Below, one piece after another: positions 16,173 to 58,591 of a stretch of 64,000 nucleotides of DNA; position 1 is the first letter of the stretch, and the number at the start of each line of letters is the position of its first letter. The notes beneath the pieces were generated by a model, which made no database searches, was not told the origin of the DNA, and saw only the letters and a list, made by a program, of their open reading frames with translations. The translations under genes and the position numbers were made by a program. This DNA is from Phanerochaete sordida (Eukaryota > Basidiomycota > Agaricomycetes > Polyporales > Phanerochaetaceae): contig BPQB01000004.1 of the NCBI GenBank assembly GCA_019973155.2, positions 1,116,001-1,180,000 on the forward strand, read 5' to 3'.

Positions 16173-17892
16173 ATGTCCAATTCAACACAGAATGCTACAA
16201 CAACCCAGGAGGAGAGCGTAACCGCGGCCGCATACGCGAACTTGTACGTCCGCCTTCCTCCACAAGTTCAACGTTCTGACACGTAGCCATAGCGTGCGAG
16301 GCAACTACTTCAGCATGTCGTCTCGGGGTGAGTCTTGGTTCTTCGCTGCGTAGCCCGGCTAACCAGTCCTCGCAGTGCTTTTTCTCTGGGAATTCTGCGT
16401 TACATTTGACGATGAGGTCGAATACGTCTGGAGAGGAAGATGGACACCCGCTACTATTCTCTACATGATCAATCGCTATGTGAACGTCGTGATCACCCTC
16501 CTGGAACTGTTGGATCAAGCACCGTTTCAAACCGAACAGGTGCGCCACACTTTCTGCTGACTTTCGTCGCAGCGCTGACGTGGACACAGAGGTATGTCCT
16601 AACATGCTCGCGTAGTGCTTTGTGCTCAAGCGTGACAGCTGTGGGCCATTCGTTCGCGTTCTACAGTCTTTACTAGTCGTCGCATTGTTTATTGTTGCCG
16701 GTGAGTTGTGGCGCGTTCGCACCTTTCGGGCCTTCTAATCGCGTCTAGCCTTCGCCACTATACGAGTCTACGCCATCTGGAACTACAACTGGAAACCGGC
16801 CTTGTTAATCCTGCTCTTGTCGCTTATTTCGCCGATCATCAGTATCGTCAGTCAGAGTCGGTCCCGCTTCATACGTGTCGCTTACTCTCCCCATACTCCT
16901 CGCAGATTATGGACGTCGACCAACTCCCTGCAATTGCGCCACCACCATCAGTCGGGTGCGCAGTGTACACGATGATGACACCCGATATGTTCAGCAGGTG
17001 CGCCAATTTCTCGTGCAGAGCTTGGGCATTTCTGACTATCCCTCACTCTCGCAGATGTGAGCGATTCGTTGCCAGCGTCGAGGCATGACGTGCTGACGTT
17101 CCTCAGTGACGATCATCAATCGTGCTTCGACTGTGGCGTACGACGGGGTCGTGCTGCTTCTGACGGTCGCGCGGGCCATGAGCCTCAGGCAGGACTCTAT
17201 ACGGCTGCGGGTCAGGGACGGTATTATGGCACTCATTCTTCGAGACGGTGAGGGCACTCCGTGCATGAGGTCTTCGTCCGCGCTGACCGACGAGGAACTC
17301 AGGCGCTCTATATTTCTTGTATGTGTCTTGTCGACGATCTTGCATGTCGGCGTATATCTGACGCCCTCGCAGAGCTCTTCTATGCATAAACTTAACACAA
17401 ATTATCATGTCAGCCGAGCTGGCGGTGAGTTGCTACCTTTATGACCCTTCGCCACGGCGAGACTCACAAGAGGTATCGCCCATAAGGGAAACAACAACAT
17501 CGCCTATTATGTCTCTCCGTGAGTAGATAGAGATGCTCAGCTTTCCGATCCTGATGTGCCTGCCTAGTATGACCTCCGTGCTTATATCTCGCTTTCTCAT
17601 CGACCTACGAAAAGCTGCCGCGAAAGAAGATCAGCGCCTTCGGGAAGCCACGTCGGTGTTCCTGACAACGGAAATCCAGGGCCCGAGTATGTTCGGCATG
17701 GCGACTGACGGCCTCGGAATCGCCAGCCTCGCAGGCCCTTTGGCTACCAGCGTCCTCAGTCCCCTGACGAGCAACTCGGACTACCCGGACACTGAGCACT
17801 GCTTCGAGGAGATACACGAGCTGCAGGGGTTTAAGGCTGCGTGCGATAGTAGCGATACCGTAAAGCATGTAGTACCAGATCAGGTGGTGTAA
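16173..17892 (+). CDS. DUF6533-type seven-helix membrane protein (copy 1), with two 2-nt micro-exons
   Basis: Thirteen exons join in frame to 365 residues: 16173-16243, 16287-16327, 16376-16539, 16590-16591, 16639-16700, 16749-16846, 16906-16997, 17055-17056, 17107-17247, 17303-17318, 17373-17424, 17487-17518, 17568-17892. The start SYANF/YFSMSSRVLFLWEF and FDDEVEYVWRGRW match the basidiomycete DUF6533 pattern. Later helices include LQSLLVVALFIVAAFATIRV, VAYDGVVLLLTVARAM, GALYF and YVSPMTSVLISRFLIDLR, about seven in all. The acidic tail of about 100 residues is cytosolic by inference. Function of the family is unknown; a receptor-like role is often supposed from topology only. The tandem copy at 19488 has identical lengths for most internal exons. 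Confidence 0.8.
16590..16591 (+). other. Micro-exon of 2 nt (AG) in DUF6533 copy 1
   Basis: The introns 16540-16589 (50 nt) and 16592-16638 (47 nt) flank the dinucleotide AG. Joining CAG + AG + C TGT gives Gln-Ser-Cys-Gly-Pro-Phe. The same arrangement gives Lys-Ser-Cys-Gly-Pro-Phe in copy 2. A single-intron alternative using the acceptor at about 16616 also keeps frame here and adds seven residues, but has no counterpart in copy 2. Confidence 0.65.
17055..17056 (+). other. Micro-exon of 2 nt (AT) in DUF6533 copy 1
   Basis: The introns 16998-17054 (57 nt, branch-like tctgact) and 17057-17106 (50 nt, branch-like gctgacg) flank AT. AG + AT + TG ACG reads Arg-Leu-Thr and enters the next helix in frame. 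Skipping the dinucleotide shifts the frame. Retaining the first intron is in frame here, but in copy 2 the equivalent intron contains an immediate stop. Confidence 0.65.
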
Positions 17893-19487
17893 AGTGCCCC
17901 CAGGCTGACGTCCAACTTGTACGCTCCTTAACGTTGCCTTCGTTAATTCACCGTAGAGTGGTGCTTTCTTTCTTCCGCCGTGTACGATCAGCGCTTTGCG
18001 TGTGTCTAGAGGATGATTGCGAGGCGGCCGCAGAGTAGACCTTTGATGCATTCCACTCAGCGGACACGCTCGATTGCACAGGATGTCCGAGAACGGGGGC
18101 GCGGAAGCACCGGGCGGGGCGGGTTATTTGCTTCCGCGCGACCCTAGGGTTTGGCTCATTGAATCATCGGACGAATGAAGGGCGACTGATGTTTACCCAG
18201 TTGACGTAGAGCCACGTCAATCTGCGTGGTGGGATCGGTAAAGGAGCAAGAATCAGATCTCTCGTGCCGTCCTCATGATGGTCAGGATCGTCGCTCCTGC
18301 GGAAGCTGACTCGTGGGCCGGGACGTTTGTTCCGCACATGCACGATACAGCCATTGCCTCCCTCGGGCGCCGCGTGCCTGTGCTGGGCTACGCGCCGCTT
18401 CAAAAGCGGCAAGTGACGCGTCTGCTGAGAGCCGCGTCTGCGGTCAAAAGACTGAGTGGTAAGTGGAATTGCTCGTCATCATGCATTCATGCTTCGAGTC
18501 CGGAAGCCACGTTCGCGGGTCAGGCTCATTCTGAGAGCCGGGAACGCTACAGATACATCGCATGATGAGCCAGACGCTGCCTTTCGTAGCTCGAGCTGTT
18601 CCCGAATCCTGGCTAGACAGCAAGTCGGCAGGCGCGTTCAAGTTACCGTGGACGCGGGCCTAGAGCCGGAGATTACGTAAGCGATCAGCGGGGCGCCGAC
18701 GCCCGAGTTTCGCGGAACCATTTTTTCTTCTGACCTCGGCGTGGGAGCGTTCGACTCGCCAGGACTCGCCCAGCCCAACAAGGCCCAACAGTCCACCATC
18801 GCCATGCTAGGTCGAGCGTACACCGCTGATATCGGCGAGTGTCCGTCGTCCGCAGTCCGGTGGTTGTCTCTCACGTCGGTCAAGCTGGCCGGGCTTGGCT
18901 CGGGTAGGAAGTAGCAGGGATAATGATTATAGCCCGCGCGCCGAGGGACTTCCAATAGCGTTCTGTTGCGTGCTCCTGCGCCCGTGACACGTGCAGGACA
19001 CGGAGTTCTCTCTTTTTGAACTCCTGAGCGTCTCGTATGGCTCTCACGAAGCAAGTGCGCCACCATCTCCTCAAATATTTCCTTAACGCCTTGACGGTTC
19101 GCGACAAACGAGGCCACGGGCGACATACTAGACTGCTCGCGATGCGTGCTGTCGTTCTCCATGTAATCTCTGCCAAGAAGAGTGCCACACCGCGACTCTT
19201 CCAGCGCGCAGCGTACTAAGCACCGTTGCATAACGCAACCCGAGACATCCGAAACTTGGGTACAACTACCATCATGATGGTGAAGTTACCAATACGAGCC
19301 TTCAGGCACCGATAGACGACACAAAAGTATCGCGCCGAGAATCCTATGAATACGAGGTCTCCGGCGGGCATTCCTCGACGCCGAAACTCCTTCCTGACAC
19401 TGTCACATCTTGGCTGCGACAACCCTGGTCAAGAACGGGGTGCATGTCACTCTTCGGACGCCATAGGTCAACGGCTTGCGTGACGAT
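17893..19487. other. No gene recognised (1.6 kb)
   Basis: The spacer between the tandem DUF6533 genes. A 197-codon minus-strand open frame (18638-19231) and a plus frame at 18275 have no recognisable domains and no codon pattern like the neighbours. The last part is the promoter of copy 2. Confidence 0.4.
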
Positions 19488-21134
19488 ATGACCCGCTCAC
19501 CGCTCGACGACACTTCCGCAGCTCCTCTGAGCGCTACTGAGAGCTACGCCAACTTGTGAGGGCCGCAAGTCCAACATACATTCACAAGCTCATGCTTCGT
19601 ATCCAGCGTGCGGAACAACTACTTTAGTGTCTCTGCGAGAGGTATGGATCTTCACTTGTGGCGGTCCTTGTGTGCTTACACTCTCGCCACAGTGCTCTTC
19701 CTCTGGGATTACTGTCTCACCATCGACCGCGAGGTGCAGTACATATGGAACAGCAAGGCTTCTCCAGCATCCGCCCTCTTCCTCATCAACCGCTATGCAA
19801 ATCTCTTGATTACAATTATGGAGCTACTCGAGCAGGGGTCGTTTCAGACAGCCAAAGTGCGTTTTAAATTTGGTTCCAAAGCGTCGATGTGCTCATCCAC
19901 ATTCTGCAGAGGTGAGATCTTACAGCACAGACGTAAGGCGCAGCTAATTTTGGGAGCAGCTGTGGACCGTTCATCCGAATTCTGGAGTCGATGCTGCTGG
20001 TCGTGTCATTAATCGCGGCAGGTGCGCGGCTCAGTCGGTTTTGTTTTTTGAGTGCGCTGAACGCTCGGACCAGCATTTGCGACGCTACGAATCTACGCCA
20101 TCTGGGACTGTGACTGGCGTCCAGCCCTTCCAGTGGGGATGCTGGGTCTTGCGTCCTTCGCTCTCAATATCGTGCGTCGTGCCCTAATCGTCGAATATGT
20201 GATCACTAACATCCCTCCTGCTAGTTGATATATGCGAATCAAACGACTGAGAAAGCACCTGCACCTTCCACTGGCTGCGCAGCGGAGATTCGAATACCGT
20301 ATTATCGGTATCATCAGTAAGTTGTGGCGCACGACCTGTCAGCGGGGGCCCAATGCTGACTCTCTGCCTCGTAGGCGTACGTAGCCGTAGCCATCCCTGA
20401 GCATATCGGAACTCAGCCTTTCATTGCAGTCCTCTTTGCGACGCAGGCTATGACGGTGGCGTACGACGCAATAGCCTTAGTCCTAACGATTGTCAAGACC
20501 GTTCAGATTCGAAGAACGCAGCGCCACACTAGGACTAGTATCCTTAAGCTGCTGGTCACAGATGGTACGTCCTCCTCCTCCGACCGATATCCAGGTGCTG
20601 AAGCCTGTCCTCCGTAGGCACACTGTACTTCTTGTACGCACAGCGTTGTCATGCGGACCGGTTGGCTGCTAACATGTGACCCGCAGTACCTTCTTTTCTC
20701 TCAACCTTGCGTCAACCCTAGTCACAGCTGAAGTCGCGGTAAGTCACTGATGGCCACCACCATGATAGATGCTGATCTGCGCGTTGTAGGGAGACAACGT
20801 GAATTACGTTGGATATTATGTGGCGCCGTAAGTCGACCGGGAGATACCTGCTTGTCGAGGACTCACTTCGTTCAGGGTAACGTCGCTCATGATCTCGCAC
20901 TTCCTGCTCAAGCTGCGGGAGGTCAGCCAACAACAAGATTCAGCCAATCGTTCTTCCGTCTATCTCACTTCGTATATCTGGACTGCCGGCGAGGCATCAG
21001 ACGCGATAGGCATGACGAGTCTCGCAGGTCCTCTCGGCAAGCACGCTACTGGCTTTGATGACTACGACCAAAGTTACGGAAGAGTCGAAGGTATTGATGA
21101 GCCTGTAGAGCTCTTGCCTGTCCCGCCGACGTAA
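19488..21134 (+). CDS. DUF6533-type seven-helix membrane protein (copy 2), with two 2-nt micro-exons
   Basis: Thirteen exons join in frame to 340 residues: 19488-19555, 19607-19641, 19693-19856, 19910-19911, 19960-20021, 20074-20171, 20225-20316, 20375-20376, 20430-20564, 20618-20633, 20687-20738, 20790-20827, 20876-21134. Exons 3 to 8 have exactly the same lengths as in copy 1 (164, 2, 62, 98, 92, 2), as do exons 10 and 11 (16, 52). Marks include VSARVLFLWDYCLTIDREVQ, FLINRYANLLITIMELLEQG, ATLRIYAIWDCDWRPALP and VGYYVAPVTSLMISHFLLKL. It is a plain tandem duplicate with diverged loops and tail. Function is unknown. Confidence 0.8.
19910..19911 (+). other. Micro-exon of 2 nt (AG) in DUF6533 copy 2
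   Basis: The flanking introns are 19857-19909 (53 nt) and 19912-19959 (48 nt, CTAAT branch-like). AAA + AG + C TGT gives Lys-Ser-Cys-Gly-Pro-Phe. I found no single-intron alternative that keeps the frame of the following helix, so the dinucleotide exon appears required. Confidence 0.75.
20375..20376 (+). other. Micro-exon of 2 nt (GC) in DUF6533 copy 2
   Basis: The introns 20317-20374 (58 nt) and 20377-20429 (53 nt, begins gtacgt, ends ttgcag) flank GC. CA + GC + TC CTC reads Gln-Leu-Leu-Phe-Ala and leads into VAYDAIALVLTI. Without the dinucleotide every acceptor tested gives a stop or a shifted frame. Position and length match the AT micro-exon of copy 1. Confidence 0.75.
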
Positions 21135-34702: not shown

Positions 34703-36788
34703 ATGCTCGCTGTCGACCATGGCTCCGACGATGTCAGGGACACCTTGTTCGCTACCGCTGGGTGCGCCGTAGTGAGTGATTCCCATCTTGCCTGCTTTTA
34801 CGAATCTCACCCTGTGTCACGTAGGTCGTGTACCTGGCCTTCAAGCAATGGGAGCCGTGGCGGCTTTCCATCGTGATCCCACTGACAGTATTCCCACCTG
34901 TGGTGCTGTCTCTGCGGCTCGTCGAGAGCCACGGGATGATGAATGCAACGGCCGTGACCTTCACCACATTCTTCTCGATCCTCATGGCCTCAGTGGCATT
35001 CTATCGCCTGTCACCTCTTCACCCACTCGCCAAATTCCACGGGCCCCTGCAATGCAAGCTGACCGGCTTCTGGATGGCGTGGGTGGCCAGCAGAGGAAAG
35101 CGACACGTGTATATTCAGTCGCTGCATGAACGGTACGGCGACTACGTCCGGATAGGTGTGGCCGCCCGATGACCGGATCGCTTTTACGAGCTGAACATGT
35201 ACCCAGGCCCCAATGAAGTTTCCATCAGTGACGGCACCGTCATATCGCTGATCCTCAACTCTCCTGGCTGGCCCAAGGCATCGGGCATGAGCGGACGGGC
35301 TCTGCATCAGGACCCACTGCCTTTGATCTCCCTTCCCGACGATGCTGAACATGCTCGGCGCCGCAGATCATGGAATAGAGCGTTCAGCTCTGCAGCAGTG
35401 AAGGAGTATCAGCCTATCGTCGCGCAACGAGCAACGCAGCTCATCCACGCGCTACAGGAGCAGCAAGGAGTAGTGGACTTAGCGCAGTGGATGAGCTATT
35501 TCACGTACGTCCGATTCTGCGGTGAACCGACTTCGGATCACTCTAATTGACCACGCCTTAGATATGACTTTATGGGAGACATGGCGTGAGAATGCCCGCT
35601 ACATCTGTGGCTGTGCCCTGTTCATATTCTTCGACAGCTTTGGCGGCGGTACTGAAATGCTGCGTGACGGCGACCAAGATGGGCTCTGGGCACTTCTGAA
35701 GGACGGCATGAGGTGGGCGCACAGATCGACCGAGATATCATAAGCTAATGTTCATTCTCGTAGCACGGCCGTTCCTTTCGAGCATGTCCCTTGGCTGTCG
35801 CACTACATCTCGCATTTTCCATCCATGATTCGCAGCCTCACGAAGCTGCGAACGTTGGCGTTTGGAAGATCGCAGACGCGATACAACAAGGGCTCCAACA
35901 CGAGAGACCTCTTCTACTATCTGGTACGTTGCTCAAGCTCAAGAAATGCTGTATCTGACCGAATCACCAGAGCAATGAGGACCGCGCAGACGCAGAGATG
36001 CCGCTAGTGAAAGTGGTCATTTCGGATGCTGTCCTGGCGATCGTTGCGGGTTCAGACACGACGGCCGTGACGTTGGGCAATATATTCTACTACCTCATAT
36101 CGAATCCACAGGCGTACAAGAAGCTGCAGAAGGAGGTCGACAAGCACTATCCGGCGGGGGAGGACGCCCTTAACCCAAAGAATTACTCACATATGCCATA
36201 TCTCGAGGCGGTGATGTGAGTCGATGTCGTCTCCGCCGGGCTTTCCGCAGGCTTATCTTTTTTGTAGCAACGAAGCCATGCGACTATACCCTGCGTTGCC
36301 TAGCGGCAGCATGCGCACGCCGGCGAAAGACACGGGCGGACAGTCAATCGGTCACCAGTAAGTTTGCGGTTTATGTAGCTTCAGGCGGGCTACTTCTAGG
36401 CTGTTTACCAACGTCTTCCTGCTCTAGCTACATACCGGTGGGCACGCAAGTGCGAGTTCATCCCTACACCATACAGCGCGACCCCCGCAACTTCTCACAT
36501 CCTAGTCTATTTTGGCCGGACCGCTGGCTCATTGCGAGTGGACTTCTGTCACACCCAGAGAAGATCGTACACAACTCCGAAGCTCTCATACCCTTCTCGA
36601 CTGGCTCCAGGAACTGCGTCGGGAAGAACCTCGCGCTACTCGAGATGAAAATGGTGACATGCCATATCTTGCAGAGGCTAGAGTTTAGATTTGCCGACGC
36701 ATGGGATCCTCGCCAATGGTCGGAGGACCTCGAAGACGTCTTTGTGTCACGAATGGGTCAGCTGCCTGTCGTAGTACAGGCGCGATGA
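34703..36788 (+). CDS. Cytochrome P450 monooxygenase
   Basis: A multi-exon gene with an N-terminal membrane part (VVYLAFKQWEPWRLSIVIPL, then a second hydrophobic stretch) and the proline-rich hinge SPLHPLAKFHGPLQCKLTGF. The C-helix WNRAFSSAAVKEY, the oxygen-binding I-helix AGSDTTAVT, the K-helix ExxR (NEAMRLYPALPSGS, completed by an intron at about 36217) and the heme loop PFSTGSRNCVGKNLALLEMK with the Cys ligand are all present. It is an ER-anchored class II P450; the substrate is unknown and no tailoring-gene cluster surrounds it. The intron at 35157 must be removed to join RYGDYVRIG to PNEVSISD. CYP family not assigned. Confidence 0.9.
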
Positions 36789-37609: not shown

Positions 37610-38818
37610 ATGGCGAACATCTGGTCGCTCGATGACCCTCTATCGGACCCGATGGGTCCTGTGGACAATTTTCGTCAGGACCCAGTATACTACGAGGAAC
37701 CCGAAGAGTTCACGCCACCTCCTCCTCCAGCCGGCTCGCTGATACTCCCAAACAAGGAACCCGCCGCATTTCCTACACTTATCTTCAGACACGGAAGCGT
37801 CGAAGGTGGTGGCACGTATCCCATGGCTCTATTCCCAGACGGACGCCACCTCGCCATCGGCAGCGTCGATACCATCAACATATGGAACTTGGCCTCCGGC
37901 CGACTTGACCGGCGGCTGCGAGGACACCGCAAACCAGTCTATTCGCTGTGCTTTTCCCCAGACGGCACCCGCCTTGTGTCGGGCTCGGCTGACGCCCACA
38001 TCGCCGTCTGGTCCGTCGACACGGATGAAACCGTCCCGCTTCATTACATATCAACTGGACTTTCCGACGAAGTCCTGCACGCCCTTTTCTCGCCCAACGG
38101 CATCACGTTCGCCACAGCGCACAGCTCAGAAACCGTACGCCTCTACAACACGGCATCGGGCGAGCTACTCTACACCTTCGACCACCCCTTCGGCGAGATT
38201 GAGCGCGTCCTCTTCAGTCCCGACGGCCACCATCTGTTCGCGTACGGTCTTTCGGGGGCGTCTATGTGGGACCTCACCGTTCGGCAGGGCACCCGCATGA
38301 ATGGCCTCGTCAACAGCTTCTGGCGAATGGTGATGAGCTCCGACGGACGCTGGATTATCGCAGGCTCCGCGGACGGCTCGTGCCGGATCTGGGAGACGAG
38401 CACCGGCAGCGAGTTCGACCTCCATATGCTGCACGTCGGCTCAGTCGAGGCGCTCGCCCTTTCCCCCGACGGCCGGCGCGTCGCGTCCGGCGCTATCGAT
38501 GGCTCAGTCGTGCTGTGGAACCTCCGCAGCGGCAAGAGGCGCATAGTCTTTCATAAGGACTCCAGAGAGGGCCGCGGAATCTACTCCCTAGCCTTCTCCA
38601 ACTCGAGCGAGGTGCTGGCGGTTGGCGCTCAGGACGGCGGGATCTCGTTGTTGGACGGCAAGAAGGGCACGCTCATTGGGGAGCTGGAAGGTCATTACGG
38701 CAGAATACGTATGCTGTTGTTCACTCCGGACGACAAGACCTTGCTCTCCTACTCCGACGACGGGAATGTCAGGGCCTGGGACTTGACGGTCGTAAAGGAA
38801 GCACTAGAGTCAGACTAG
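37610..38818 (+). CDS. WD40-repeat protein, 402 aa, intronless
   Basis: A single open frame of 402 residues. After an acidic and Pro-rich N-terminus (about 60 residues) come about seven WD repeats. Examples are GRHLAIGSVDTINIWNLASG, GTRLVSGSADAHIAVWSVD, GRWIIAGSADGSCRIWETST and GRRVASGAIDGSVVLWNLRS, each preceded by the usual SPDG turn. This builds one beta-propeller, a scaffold for protein contacts with no enzymatic motif. Absence of introns is unusual in this window and could mean retrocopy origin, though no poly-A trace is seen. It lies between two inverted tRNA-Asp genes. The partner is unknown. Confidence 0.9.
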   Translation: MANIWSLDDPLSDPMGPVDNFRQDPVYYEEPEEFTPPPPPAGSLILPNKEPAAFPTLIFRHGSVEGGGTYPMALFPDGRHLAIGSVDTINIWNLASGRLDRRLRGHRKPVYSLCFSPDGTRLVSGSADAHIAVWSVDTDETVPLHYISTGLSDEVLHALFSPNGITFATAHSSETVRLYNTASGELLYTFDHPFGEIERVLFSPDGHHLFAYGLSGASMWDLTVRQGTRMNGLVNSFWRMVMSSDGRWIIAGSADGSCRIWETSTGSEFDLHMLHVGSVEALALSPDGRRVASGAIDGSVVLWNLRSGKRRIVFHKDSREGRGIYSLAFSNSSEVLAVGAQDGGISLLDGKKGTLIGELEGHYGRIRMLLFTPDDKTLLSYSDDGNVRAWDLTVVKEALESD

Positions 38819-46897: not shown

Positions 46898-49218
<2,321 letters not shown>

Positions 49219-53114: not shown

Positions 53115-56100
53115 TTACGACAGGTGCGGCGAAGGCATCTGCGACGGTGCCTGCGAGGGTCCTTGCGAGAGTCCAGGAACAGAAGAACTGTACTGAGAGC
53201 GTTCGGACTCGAACGAGTTGCGACGCGTGCGCTCGGGCGTGCTCGCCACAGTGGGTATGCTGGACGTGCTGTACATCCGGTTGTTGACGAGCTGTCGCGC
53301 ACGAGAGTCAGCCATGCACACGACCACGCAGAAGCTGAAAGGACTCACCCCGCCTATCGGTCTAGAATAGTCGATGTCATCGCGCAAACTGATCGCTGCC
53401 GAGCTGCGCATGCCCGGGTTGTCCAGCTGCGAGCCCAGCGTCGGGTCGAGCAGACCCTCGGGTATATGCTGGCTCGAGCGCTCCGTGAGCGCGGGCGATG
53501 GCATGCCGCCGCCTGCGAGCGGGCCAAGGCCGGGCCACACGGGCGTGCCTGCGGGCACGCCGTCCTCGGGGATCGCGCCGTACTGTTCGAACATGGTAGG
53601 CGGGAGCGTACCGAGTGTCGGCGACTGCGTTCGGAAGATGGACGAGAGGCTCGCGCTGCTCGGCCCCTGGCGCGTGATCGTCGGGAGGGTGCTGTATGGT
53701 GACTCCGTCGCTGGCCGGGGCGAGCCGAACTGCGCGGTCATGGCGTTGTTGAGCAGGACCTGCGAGGTCATGGAGGCGCGTTGCGAGGCCAGCGACGTCC
53801 GCTGCGAGGCCGTCGAGGAGCCCGAGCCGCTGCGCGGACGCCCGCCACGCACCCAGTTCAACGGTCGCCCGAGGAAGGTTCCGCTGTATTTTCGCTGGGG
53901 ATTTCTGGGCTGTTTGTCCTCGACCGGTCCACGGTACGCTGTTGGCGGGGCCTGTATCTGGGTTGGCAGCAAGCTAGAAGGACCGGGAGATGTTCGTCCG
54001 TCAGCCATGCGGTGGCCGATACTGGAACTTGACGCGCCGTGCCCAACAGAGGACAGTGGGTGCCCGTGGCCGCTCGATGACGCAGCGTGTCCGTGTGCAG
54101 AGCTGGAATGTCCGTGAGCGGAAGACCCGGCGTAGGCAAGTTCGTCCATGGAGAGTCGACTGGCGCTACGACTTGTCCCTTGCAAGGCAGGATAGCTCGC
54201 AGACCGCGGTGAGCTCGCCATCATGAGATGCTCGGCATCTGACCCACTCGAATCCGCGAACGGGTCACTGCCATCGTGGCCGACAGAGGACGACGGCCCA
54301 TGTACAGGTGACAGCGAGTCATCGGTAGGGCTGGCCCCGAGGTCGACGGCGTACGGGAGGTCTTTCCCTCCGAGCCATGCCGCGGGCTCGGGACCAAAGC
54401 TCGCATGAAGCAAGTCTGCGGATTGCGGTGAGATGGGAGAAGACAAGTGGTGGTATTCCGATGATGAGCCATGCGGAGAGGACCGGTCGTCACTGGACCG
54501 CTGACCGGCACCCGCGAGAGTCAAGTGGGTGCTGTTGCTTCTGCGAGCGCGGGCATTGGCAGCAGCGTCGTCGGGATGTTCGAACGGATTGTTGAGGAGC
54601 GTACCGAACGACGCAGAGCCCCTGCTTGCAATGGTCGCAGCCCCAGCGTGCTGCTCGGTCATTGGGCTGCTCCACCGTGTAGCATAGTCGTCGCCATCCT
54701 CGTCCTCCAAAACCGCCGCCCTTCCACGCTCGCCGTTGGAGCCGAAGAAGTGCCCCGACCCTCCTAGCGCAGCCTCTTCCGCCTCCCGGACTCGTGTGTT
54801 GTGTTTCCGGCGAGCAATGCCGATCCAGACGCCAATCAACACCACGAATGCGATGACTCCGATGACAAGCCCACTGATCGCTCCGGGGTTATGTGCAAGG
54901 CTGGATGAGCAGGTCAATTGGCTAATATCTTCACATAGGATCATGGCACTTACGCATTATGGCTCGTTCCAGCATTTGGGATCAGCGTTCCGGTGGCAAC
55001 CGTGGTCGTGTACACTGTGGTGTGCCATGTTCCGCCGCTCGCGTACGACGATGTCACTGTGGTCGTAGTGGTAATCGTCGACGTATGGAAGTTGCCGGAC
55101 GGCAGGGACGATATCGTGGCGGAGTCGCTCGCACTCGCGAGACTGCCGCTGGTGACCGGAAAGAACGGCCGGGTCGTGAACGTTACACTCAAGAGCTCAC
55201 GAGACGACGACAACGACGTCAAGATAGGAGCACTGGCGGACGAACCATCCGAAGACGATACATGTGGACCGCGCGAAGCCCCCAAGCTCTGAGAACGCGT
55301 TGGGGAAGATCCCGAGATGGTAGGCGAGGAGCCAAAAGCGGAAGACGATGCGCCTGGCGACCCGGACGATAGCGACGACGGCCCACTGAGCGAGGACCCG
55401 AACGACGAGGACGACGAGGATGGCGCAGACGATGAGCTGATGCTCGACGGCGGGTGTAGCGACAGTATTGAGCCCGGGAGCGACACCAGACTCGATGACC
55501 CCACGGACACTGACGGCAGCGATGCCGGGATGCTCGGCGCTGACGTGATAGGAAGCGACGAGCTGCCAAACGACGCTAATGCACTGTCAGATGAGATAAC
55601 CGTCGGCGTCGAGAACGGAAGGGAGGTCGGAAGTGAGGGCATCGTAGGCACGGATATCGAGAATGGTAGCGACGACAGCGCGGTGAGGGATGTGAGCACC
55701 GGCGGAAGCGAGAGCGAGAGCGATACCGACACCGAGAGCGGAGCCGAGAACGACGTCGGCACGGAAAACGGGACGGAGAAGGTCGAGGGTACCGATACGG
55801 AGGGAAAGGTGATTTGGGGGAGGGACACCGATGTCATCAGGGACGGGGGTGGCGATGGTAGATCAGTTGAGACAGTGGGGAGTGAAAAGGAGGGAATCGA
55901 TGGAATTGAAGGCGTTGAGAGCGGCGGTGTCGTGGGCGCGGTCGTGGGCGAGGGTAGCGAGATAGCGGGCGAGGTCAATGTCGGTATCGACGGCAAGGAT
56001 AGCGAGAGGGAGATTGAGAGCGGAAGCGATATAGAGGGAAAAGTCATTAGTGATGATGTTGAGCTGAAGTCCGAGACAAAAGCAGATGAAGAGAATGGGT

Positions 56101-58591
56101 TGGATAAAGATGCGACTGAAGATGAAAGTGAGGTGGGAAGGAGCGAAGACGAGGCCCAAGAGGATGGTGGTACAAGCAGAGAAACGGTGGTGGACGGAGG
56201 AAGAGAAGAAGAAAAAGACAGAGGGGACGAGGGTGCTAGGAACGACAGCGAGGACACGGAAGTAGTCGCGCTAGATCCATGGGGCGGTCGCGAAGACAGA
56301 GAGTCAAGGGGGAGAGACGGTGACGTGAACGAAAGGGACGGTGTGGGCGCATGTGTAAATGTGGACCGAGATCCAGATCTCGATGTCGGTGATGGCGAAG
56401 CAGAAGACATATCCCCCGACATACTGCCGACCGAGAAACCAGAGCTCGCCAGCGAAGACCCATGCGCCAGCGCCGTCGACGAGAGCGACCTCGAACGAAC
56501 AGACGTCGGTGCCGGGATCGACGGAACACCCGGGTCGGCCGAAGACAATAATGAACTCGTCGTCCGGCTATTCTGTACACCAGACGACAGTGGAGAGGCC
56601 GTGGAGCTCTCCACGCTGGTGGCGGATGTAAACGAGACAGTGACAGGAACCCCAGAATGAGATGACAAAGTCCGCGCCGAGGAAGGACTAAACGACGAAG
56701 ATAGAATTGACCGATCCAAAATGCTTGTTGTGCCGAGACTACTTGAGGATGCGCTTGTTGTGGATTGCAAAGATACCGAGTCCCAAGTTGTGGAAGAAAA
56801 CGCCAAAGAAGAAGCAGACGAACCGTCTATAGGTTGCGAACTGGAACAGAAAAAGCAAGAAAGCAAAATTGGCACTCCATGCCAACCAAGAACAAAGGCA
56901 AAGCGAAAGAAGGCAGAGCGGGAGAAATGGACACTCACGTTGACCCTGACGAGAGACTACTGCTTGCTTGGAAGCTTGATGCGCTGACAGGCGTTGACGA
57001 GGCGCTCCGTGACCGGGGAAAAGACGCAGATACTGAGACAGAGAGAGACTCGCTAATGGAAGCAGAGATTGTAGTTGAGGATATGATAGACAGAGGAGTC
57101 GTGGGTGTAGAGAGATGTTCCGAGGGCGATGAGCTCGTTAAAGACGTGGATGATCGTGACGACGTAAGCGTAGAGGAACCCGAGGATGATAGGCTGGACG
57201 ATCCAAATGAGAGGGATGAGGAGCTTTGCGAGGACCTCGAACCAGATGAAGCAGAGACGGATGTTGCCGAGATTGTATTTGAGGATTGAGAGGCCGTACT
57301 CTGGCTAGAAGAGCTGGATGTAGATAGCGATACCGAGCGTGAGGCTTGCGAAGGTCCGGACGACCTGGAGGCGGAGCCTGAAGCGCTTGAACTGCTCTGT
57401 AAGCCACGAGTGTGCGACCGCGAACTTTGCGACACCGGAGTCGACTGTGAACTCGGCGGCGGCGTGGACGAGTCTCCACCGGACGTTACAGACACAGACG
57501 TCGAAGAACCATGACTTGAGGTCGAATCGCTGGTACTCGATGAATGGGATTCGGACGACGATGACGTGGTGCTGCTCTGTGACTGTGACATTGGAGGCGG
57601 CGTTGGTGGTCCAGGTCCGACGGAGCTGCGAGACGACGGCCCGCCGCCCGGCGAGGACTGAGAAGACGGCGGTTGAGATAGCGGTAAGCTCGACGAGCTG
57701 CTTTGCGAACTGGCCGACGTGGGCGGCGGCGTCGGGTCTCCAGGATCAGAGCTCTTTACAGAGGACGGGGGTGGCTGAGACGAATGTGAGGACTCTGAGA
57801 CCGGCGGCGGCTGCGTCGAGTGCGAGGTAGGGTCCTGCGAAGTCTGCGAGGAACTTGAACCCTGAGAAGATCGAGACGTCGGTTGCGACTGCGATGATTG
57901 GCTGCTGGGCGGCGGCGTGGGCGGATCCGGGCTATCTGTGCTCCGCGAAGCTACAGACGACGGGGGTGGTTGCGAAGGCGTGGTCGTTGACGAGGTGGAA
58001 GCGCTTGTTGACTGCGAGTGCGACGTCTGAGAGCCGGAGCTCGACGAAACTGACACGACAGATACACTGCTGGGTGGCGCTTGCGGCGTCGACGAAGACG
58101 TCGTCTGAGAGGCGTGCGAAGAAGGAGACGAGCTTGAGGTGGAGGATGTTGAGGATGAGGAGGACTGCGCAGCCGACGACGTGGAAGTCGTTGAAGACTG
58201 TTCCGTGCCCATTCAGGGACGATATTGACGGCCGAAGGACTCAGTACTCACCGTAGAACTCGACGAACCACTAGAGCTCGAGCTTCCCCCCGCGCTGCTG
58301 CTCGACGCATTCGAGCTTGGATTGAGCGGCGCGGCGCGTCGTGCCCGCCGGGGATCGAAGCCGAGCGTAGTCGAGAGCACTGGAGGTTGCGTTAATACGA
58401 TTGTCTTGCCGGCGGTACCTGTGGGCGTGGCTGCAGCGAGTGCGGGGAACCAGGCCATGCAAACGGCGAGAGCGATAGACGGCCATCGCGAAGGATTCCT
58501 GAGAGAAAAGCACAGCGAAAGTCAGTGCGGGTGATGCACGTCAAACAAACAAGGCTCATTACCGTCCCGCCGCTCGTTCGCGCGCGTCCAT
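53115..58591 (-). CDS. Giant Ser-rich mucin-like single-pass membrane protein
   Basis: Exon 1 (58591-58563) encodes MDARERAAG and splices in frame to RNPSRWPSIALAVCMAWFPA, a signal sequence. Later introns begin near 58251, 56938, 54955 and 53351. The extracellular part, more than 1,000 residues, is almost all Ser/Thr/Pro in low-complexity runs and would be heavily O-glycosylated. A single membrane helix follows, GAISGLVIGVIAFVVLIGVW, with a basic stop-transfer (IARRKHNTR). The cytosolic tail is about 450 residues, Ser-rich, ending QAPSQMPSPHLS. This architecture matches cell-wall stress sensors and signalling mucins (Mid2/Wsc/Msb2-like) by layout, not by a conserved domain. Total is about 1,750 residues. 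Confidence 0.75.

Follow-up and report, generated by a model that had tools for sequence, protein, structure and literature searches.

The locus described here raises the question whether protein-coding genes can depend on exons of only two nucleotides (nt). Two neighbouring genes of the basidiomycete Phanerochaete sordida (strain YK-624 according to the locus tag), in the following gene 1 and gene 2, lie in the window, i.e. the whole stretch of 64,000 nt that was analyzed (contig BPQB01000004.1, here C4, positions 1116001-1180000; the genome comprises 40.8 Mb on 222 contigs). Both belong to the DUF6533 family, with scores of the PF20151 profile of 52.1 bits for gene 1 and 58.4 bits for gene 2, both above the curated cut-off of 24.1. 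A structure search with a DUF6533 protein yielded a fold resembling G protein-coupled receptors (best E-value 5.6e-4, TM score 0.45), which says nothing on function. Based on the results presented below, it is very probable that each of the two genes comprises two constitutive 2-nt exons, termed micro-exons A and B, each of which would lie between ordinary introns of 47-58 nt (Table 1).

Reading frames and exon structure of genes 1 and 2

At site A, the phase is 0 at the end of exon 3 and 2 at the start of exon 5; the corresponding values at site B are 2 for the end of exon 7 and 1 for the start of exon 9. At both sites, two inserted bases would restore the frame. Every micro-exon of the two genes is preceded by AG and followed by GT, i.e. 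by canonical splice sites. Omission of both micro-exons from the reading truncates the proteins of gene 1 and gene 2. Skipping of either one alone would cause a frameshift, and an intron that is kept would lead to a frameshift, to added residues or to a stop. Reading through intron B1 of gene 2, for instance, leads to an in-frame TAA one codon past exon 7, and retention of this intron is therefore incompatible with a full-length product.

The original prediction for this DNA had proposed AG at site A of both genes as well as AT and GC at site B of gene 1 and gene 2, respectively, flanked by GT-AG introns of 47-58 nt. All four micro-exons were recovered at the same bases by alignment with foreign guides, and the lengths of all eight flanking introns fell into this range. 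The identical lengths of exons 3 to 8 in both genes (164, 2, 62, 98, 92 and 2 nt) were confirmed. For the coding lengths, the predicted 1,023 nt of gene 2 were found again, while gene 1 comprises 1,092 nt instead of the predicted 1,098 nt; both values are multiples of three, as had been claimed.

Recovery with foreign guides and controls

For the determination of the exon borders, a purpose-written spliced alignment of protein to DNA was used, in which any exon length of at least 1 nt was allowed. With P0003 as guide, an intronless open reading frame (ORF) that is 55% identical and originates from a different public assembly, both micro-exons of genes 1 and 2 were placed at exactly the bases given in Table 1. 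The same placement of A and B in genes 1 and 2 resulted when the best one was chosen from four foreign guides, of which three were intronless ORFs and one was a public model. The use of public gene models (P0007 and others) as guides was rejected, since annotation errors caused misleading structures at A.

Apart from genes 1 and 2, only two further close paralogues, L021 and L064, were found in the genome, sharing 54-100% identity in one exon, while the next match showed 39%. The four genes of this clade are located on C4 between 1099919 and 1136000 (approximately 36 kb). With foreign guides, A and B were also obtained in L021 and L064, so that all four close paralogues carry both. In the alignments, each member of this clade, in the following the window clade, shows A as AG.

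The A and B sites of these four genes, in the following the eight core sites, were subjected to a shuffle control, in which the interior between the outer splice signals was shuffled with preservation of the dinucleotides and re-aligned. Only one of 2000 shuffles equalled the real score at the core sites, and for genes 1 and 2 no shuffle out of 250 per site did so at any of the four sites. For 43 sites in the well-modelled genes of the family, the real score was reached by 28 of 624 shuffles at B and by 43 of 408 at A; the sites at which none of 24 shuffles reached it numbered 18 out of 26 for B and 7 out of 17 for A. Besides the four-gene clade, A was well supported in L039, L049 and L066. 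In a second control, the acceptor of each micro-exon was disallowed before re-alignment, which covers models with a single intron and with a GC donor. The score fell at all 43 2-nt exons, but by at least 10 points in only 17 of them. For B of gene 2, the decrease amounted to 5.2 points, and the runner-up was another 2-nt exon.

Occurrence of the micro-exons in the DUF6533 family

The P. sordida genome contains at least 150 DUF6533 matches above the cut-off (203 candidates, 150 scored), many of which are clustered. In total, 82 loci were read, 80 fetched ones and the two genes of the window, and the length of the following exon served to distinguish site A from site B. The 38 loci with scores below 300 were left out of the counts. 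Nine transcript-like ORFs (lgn/jgi) served as guides, followed by paralogue models built with them, which makes the second round partly circular. With the transcript-like guides alone, 43 of the 82 loci passed, and their 2-nt exons lay at A in 15 cases, at B in 26 and at other places in 2. Addition of the paralogue models raised the number of loci to 44, comprising 460 introns and 47 2-nt exons (17 at A, 27 at B and 3 elsewhere). Under the strict definition, A was found in 17, B in 26 and both in 11 of these 44 genes; L084 has B by a looser rule only, which accounts for the number of 27, and the 2-nt exon of L059 was not counted at either site due to a misassignment by the next-exon rule. Apart from these, only seven internal exons of 9 nt or less were observed in the 44 genes. 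The micro-exons are not peculiar to the tandem pair, for which they had originally been described.

Exon B follows an exon of 89-110 nt and precedes one of 135-157 nt. Its letters are variable (GC, AT, CC, GA, CT, AA and others), while its length is constant. This is to be expected, since B supplies the last base of a codon and the first base of the codon after it. The introns beside 2-nt exons showed a median length of 53 nt (n=94) compared to 55 nt for the others (n=366). Judged from the sequences, B is a widespread feature of the DUF6533 genes of P. sordida that is kept in length and not in letters, and it is probably an old one. The presence of A in some DUF6533 genes outside the window clade is likewise probable.

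On the tree of the family, gain and loss of B require 10 changes, 6 of which are forced by well-supported branches. The label clusters more strongly than in most shuffles (5 of 500 were as low). B is spread over most of the larger groups, while two small groups, L060 with L066 and L074 with L078 and L084, lack it under the strict definition. In several genes that were scored as lacking B, it appears when a different guide is used, and no rates of gain and loss were therefore drawn from these data.

A different arrangement was observed at site A of L080. Here, a single 52-nt intron is present and the next exon starts with AGCTGCAAT, giving 64 nt, i.e. 2 + 62. The dinucleotide AG is fused to exon 5, is exonic and codes for Ser-Cys together with the following bases, while B is still a separate 2-nt exon. 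No convincing case of a B fused to a neighbouring exon was found.

Two further observations concern the exon structure of the family. A 16-nt exon 10, which follows an exon of 141 nt, recurs across many of the modelled genes. A second set of DUF6533 genes (L012, L024, L028, L043 and others) showed exons of 10, 20, 130, 60, 33, 132, 105, 105 and 27 nt in parts; A and B were not called in this set, and the scores lay below 300.

Evaluation of alternative explanations

Several observations weigh against the presence of 2-nt exons at both sites. Splicing at A and B is deduced from the DNA sequence and not from RNA of P. sordida. The assignment to site A or B is based on the length of the next exon and not on a full alignment. 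B was not called in 18 of the 44 well-modelled genes, in some of them through poor models, and A was weak in ten genes outside those named above, where 2 to 8 of 24 shuffles were as good. Weak B sites were found in L018 (11 of 24), L067 (6 of 24) and L057 (4 of 24); despite these cases, B appears generally well supported in the alignments. For 11 of the 43 2-nt exons, the next best model was less than 3 points worse. Finally, the transcript-like ORF P0017 stops at B, where only eight foreign residues follow exon 7.

P0017 is one of ten transcript-like ORFs, the other nine being the guides used for the counts. They are located on contigs of at most 2,563 base pairs (bp) and, being open across all intron positions, probably derive from RNA. 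The ending of P0017 may represent a retained intron B1. This leads to the explanation that the micro-exons are real, but that their inclusion is variable, so that missed inclusion would result in a frameshifted, decaying mRNA and could act as a control point. P0017 fits this explanation, as it shows no insertion at A and stops just past exon 7, as could happen if B1 was kept. However, it may also be an unspliced or misassembled molecule, and the nine other ORFs read through B. L067, the model of which is 66% identical to P0017 over 60% of its length, gives residues other than those of the P0017 ending when its own intron B1 is read through. Variable inclusion is therefore considered unlikely.

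A second explanation would be one GC-AG intron of approximately 100 nt per site, with its donor located two bases further on (GT/GCGC), which keeps the frame and needs no micro-exon. The donor reads GTGC at A and B of gene 1 and at A of gene 2, and the losses of score after forbidding the micro-exons were small at these sites (8.8, 5.1 and 8.3, respectively), which likewise counts against 2-nt exons. By exon lengths, the GC-AG intron is the best alternative at B of gene 1 and A of gene 2, and at the former it would yield identical residues, as judged by eye. In addition, the Irpex model P0006 shows V-C-G-P-F at A, matching the product of such an intron. The three intronless relatives from the window clade (P0002, P0003 and P0005), however, comprise S instead of V before the Cys. 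The donors at B of gene 2 and at both A and B of L021 and of L064 (GTAA, GTAC, GTAA, GTTT and GTGA) rule out the GC-AG intron there, and 22 of 26 tested B sites have no GC at this position. Furthermore, the span across the micro-exon, taken as one intron, would have a median of 109 nt (n=47), while introns of at least 90 nt are rare elsewhere (30 of 366). Since GC-AG splicing is impossible at five core sites and at 22 of 26 B sites, it cannot account for the pattern of the family, and we regard it as very unlikely in genes 1 and 2.

It could also be argued that the public gene models are correct, i.e. that other splice sites add or drop residues at the joins and no micro-exons are needed. The model of gene 1 (P0001) indeed bridges both sites, using seven additional residues at A and retaining part of an intron at B, and the best alternative at A of gene 1 is a 91-nt intron with its acceptor at 16630, which adds R-D. 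To evaluate this, 14 public models of relatives of the window clade were compared, originating from P. sordida, P. carnosa, Irpex, Trametes, Lentinus and others, with two further species counted twice. Three of them showed no indel at A, and six fit at B. Altogether, 11 models showed indels at A and 7 at B, compared to 0, 1, 2 and 0 at the ordinary junctions 1/2, 2/3, 5/6 and 6/7. The number for B is a lower bound, as P0001 passes the test at B although it is joined by another path. At the 16-nt exon 10, 7 of the 14 models fail at the left border and 6 at the other, while the junctions 11/12 and 12/13 fail in 3 models each.

The indels at A occurred in ten different sizes from +17 to -6, while none of the ten intronless transcript-like ORFs contains an insertion at A, and the three that belong to the window clade show no indel at A or B. 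The model of gene 2 (P0053) is frameshifted at the micro-exon join and that of L067 (P0040) after A, and L080 is annotated as two genes parting at B, with P0015 ending with exon 7 and P0036 starting inside exon 9. Such a junction-specific disorder is what a gene finder blind to micro-exons would produce; the models of P. sordida were generated with BRAKER2 and manual curation, as described in PMC8530024. The correctness of the public models is thus highly improbable, and the expectation that gene finders mis-annotate this family was borne out by P0001, P0053 and several other models from Polyporales. The disorder, which is evidence from gene models and not from genomic DNA, suggests that further families of Polyporales have A and B as well.

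Pseudogenes would not be surprising in a large and clustered family, and the assembly is described as a draft in PMC8530024. That both genes are frameshifted pseudogenes, or that the assembly contains indels at these places, is nevertheless extremely improbable, since a difference of two bases recurs at the same junctions, for B in 26 and for A in 17 of the 44 paralogues, the frames of 363 and 340 amino acids (aa) are otherwise open, and the joins match the ORFs of relatives, with S-C and K-L present in P0002, P0003 and P0005, the comparison that had been proposed for the detection of pseudogenes.

Proposed splicing of the micro-exons and its significance

The sequence, the reading frames, the recurrence in paralogues and the conservation in the ORFs of relatives are direct observations. 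From these, we infer splicing itself, its order and its constitutive nature. The splice sites would pair across each intron of approximately 50 nt (intron definition), for which every intron has its own donor and acceptor. The two introns of a pair would be removed sequentially, and after removal of the first one the dinucleotide would be part of a normal exon. Simultaneous splicing seems hardly possible, since U1 bound at the donor of the second intron would overlap the acceptor of the first one, and removal is therefore most likely sequential. A sequential removal has also been proposed for the 1-nt exon of Arabidopsis APC11 (PMC4674806). The original prediction had regarded exons of this size as a challenge to models of exon definition. 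Little of this remains, since intron definition across introns of approximately 50 nt and sequential removal tolerate tiny exons, in line with the account given in PMC4674806.

A broader interpretation would be that the pairs of 2-nt exons are an ancient character of the receptor-like DUF6533 family of Polyporales, and that dozens of paralogues per genome retain them because they serve as a splicing checkpoint. Only the correct removal of four neighbouring introns would keep the frame, so that the output would be gated by splicing, and the length would be selected while the letters drift. We consider this interpretation doubtful.

If the 2-nt exons hold true, such exons are available as dozens of natural replicates within a single fungal genome, including fused and split versions of the same position. 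The minimal size of an exon, the order in which neighbouring introns are removed, and the origin and loss of exons would become testable in one organism. The public models of this large and little understood family of membrane proteins are often wrong at predictable places, where they are truncated, frameshifted or split. Wrong models corrupt family counts, domain calls and structure predictions. A recurring tiny exon would explain why automatic annotation of the DUF6533 family fails so frequently.

Table 1. Positions in the window of genes 1 and 2 and of the exons and introns predicted around their micro-exons
Feature	Position	Strand	Description	Support
Gene 1	16173..17892	+	DUF6533 protein, public model PsYK624_028330 (P0001); 13 coding exons, 1,092 nt including stop, 363 aa	
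Gene 1 exon 3	16376..16539	+	164 nt, phase 0 end ...GAACAG	spliced alignment
Gene 1 intron A1	16540..16589	+	50 nt, GT-AG	
Gene 1 micro-exon A	16590..16591	+	AG, bases 1-2 of the Ser codon preceding the conserved Cys	spliced alignment, shuffle control
Gene 1 intron A2	16592..16638	+	47 nt, GT-AG, branch-like CTAAC at 16599	
Gene 1 exon 5	16639..16700	+	62 nt	spliced alignment
Gene 1 exon 7	16906..16997	+	92 nt, phase 2 end	spliced alignment
Gene 1 intron B1	16998..17054	+	57 nt, GT-AG	
Gene 1 micro-exon B	17055..17056	+	AT, Arg codon base 3 and Leu codon base 1	spliced alignment, shuffle control
Gene 1 intron B2	17057..17106	+	50 nt, GT-AG, branch-like CTGAC at 17093	
Gene 1 exon 9	17107..17247	+	141 nt	spliced alignment
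Gene 1 exon 10	17303..17318	+	16 nt	spliced alignment
Gene 2	19488..21134	+	DUF6533 protein, public model PsYK624_028340 (206 aa); 13 coding exons, 1,023 nt including stop, 340 aa	
Gene 2 intron A1	19857..19909	+	53 nt	
Gene 2 micro-exon A	19910..19911	+	AG	spliced alignment, shuffle control
Gene 2 intron A2	19912..19959	+	48 nt	
Gene 2 intron B1	20317..20374	+	58 nt	
Gene 2 micro-exon B	20375..20376	+	GC	spliced alignment, shuffle control
Gene 2 intron B2	20377..20429	+	53 nt	
Gene 2 exon 10	20618..20633	+	16 nt	spliced alignment

Other genes of the window were assigned by eye from the list of ORFs. On the forward strand, we take 36216-36788 to be the C-terminal piece of a cytochrome P450 and 37610-38818 to encode a WD40-repeat protein. 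On the reverse strand, 47326-48606 presumably represents an ORF similar to glucose-6-phosphate isomerase, and 53115-58212 presumably contains serine-rich, mucin-like ORFs.

Comparison with known systems

Within the open-licence literature of PubMed Central (PMC), which most subscription journals lie outside of, no report of 2-nt exons in the DUF6533 family or in any fungus was found, and the same literature yielded no large gene family with two exons below 3 nt per gene. Constitutive exons of this size are known from plants, namely the 1-nt exon of APC11 in Arabidopsis and most land plants and the 1-nt exon of VPS55 (PMC8831610, PMC4674806). The micro-exons of P. sordida resemble them, as described there, in that an exon of less than 3 nt lies between two introns, is essential for the frame, has been conserved for long and is absent from annotations. 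Copies in which the base is located inside a larger exon have been described in the same papers, and L080 is the corresponding case here. The plant examples comprise 1 nt and one such exon per gene, belong to small families and were shown with RNA, whereas those of P. sordida comprise 2 nt, occur twice per gene in dozens of paralogues and were read from DNA.

The 1-nt exon of CYP621A in Fusarium is likewise fungal and was detected by the phase mismatch of the flanking exons (PMC12940212). According to this source, all but one of the transcripts built from gene models were wrong at that join. It is, however, a single exon in the orthologues of one gene within one ascomycete genus, with RNA reads across it, while the present case concerns two sites in a multigene family of a basidiomycete. 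In the P450 genes of Phanerochaete chrysosporium, a species of the same genus, introns of 45-55 bp are frequent and tiny exons occur across a large family (PMC1184071). The micro-exons given there comprise 2-10 codons with a shortest one of 6 bp, and one of 8 nt is quoted in PMC12940212, in contrast to the codon-splitting 2 nt found here.

Spliceosomal twin introns (stwintrons) also consist of two adjoining short introns that are probably removed consecutively (PMC5639578). In the stwintrons described there, the internal intron splits the donor, the branch point or the acceptor of the external one. Here, by contrast, every intron of a pair is complete, with its own GT and AG and of normal length, and two coding bases lie in between. 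The micro-exons therefore do not fall under stwintrons, and show the properties of ultra-short exons, i.e. 1-2 nt bordered by AG and GT, essential for the frame and conserved in homologues. Constitutive exons of less than 3 nt are thus already known, and what is notable in P. sordida is the presence of two such sites per gene and their spread over a gene family.

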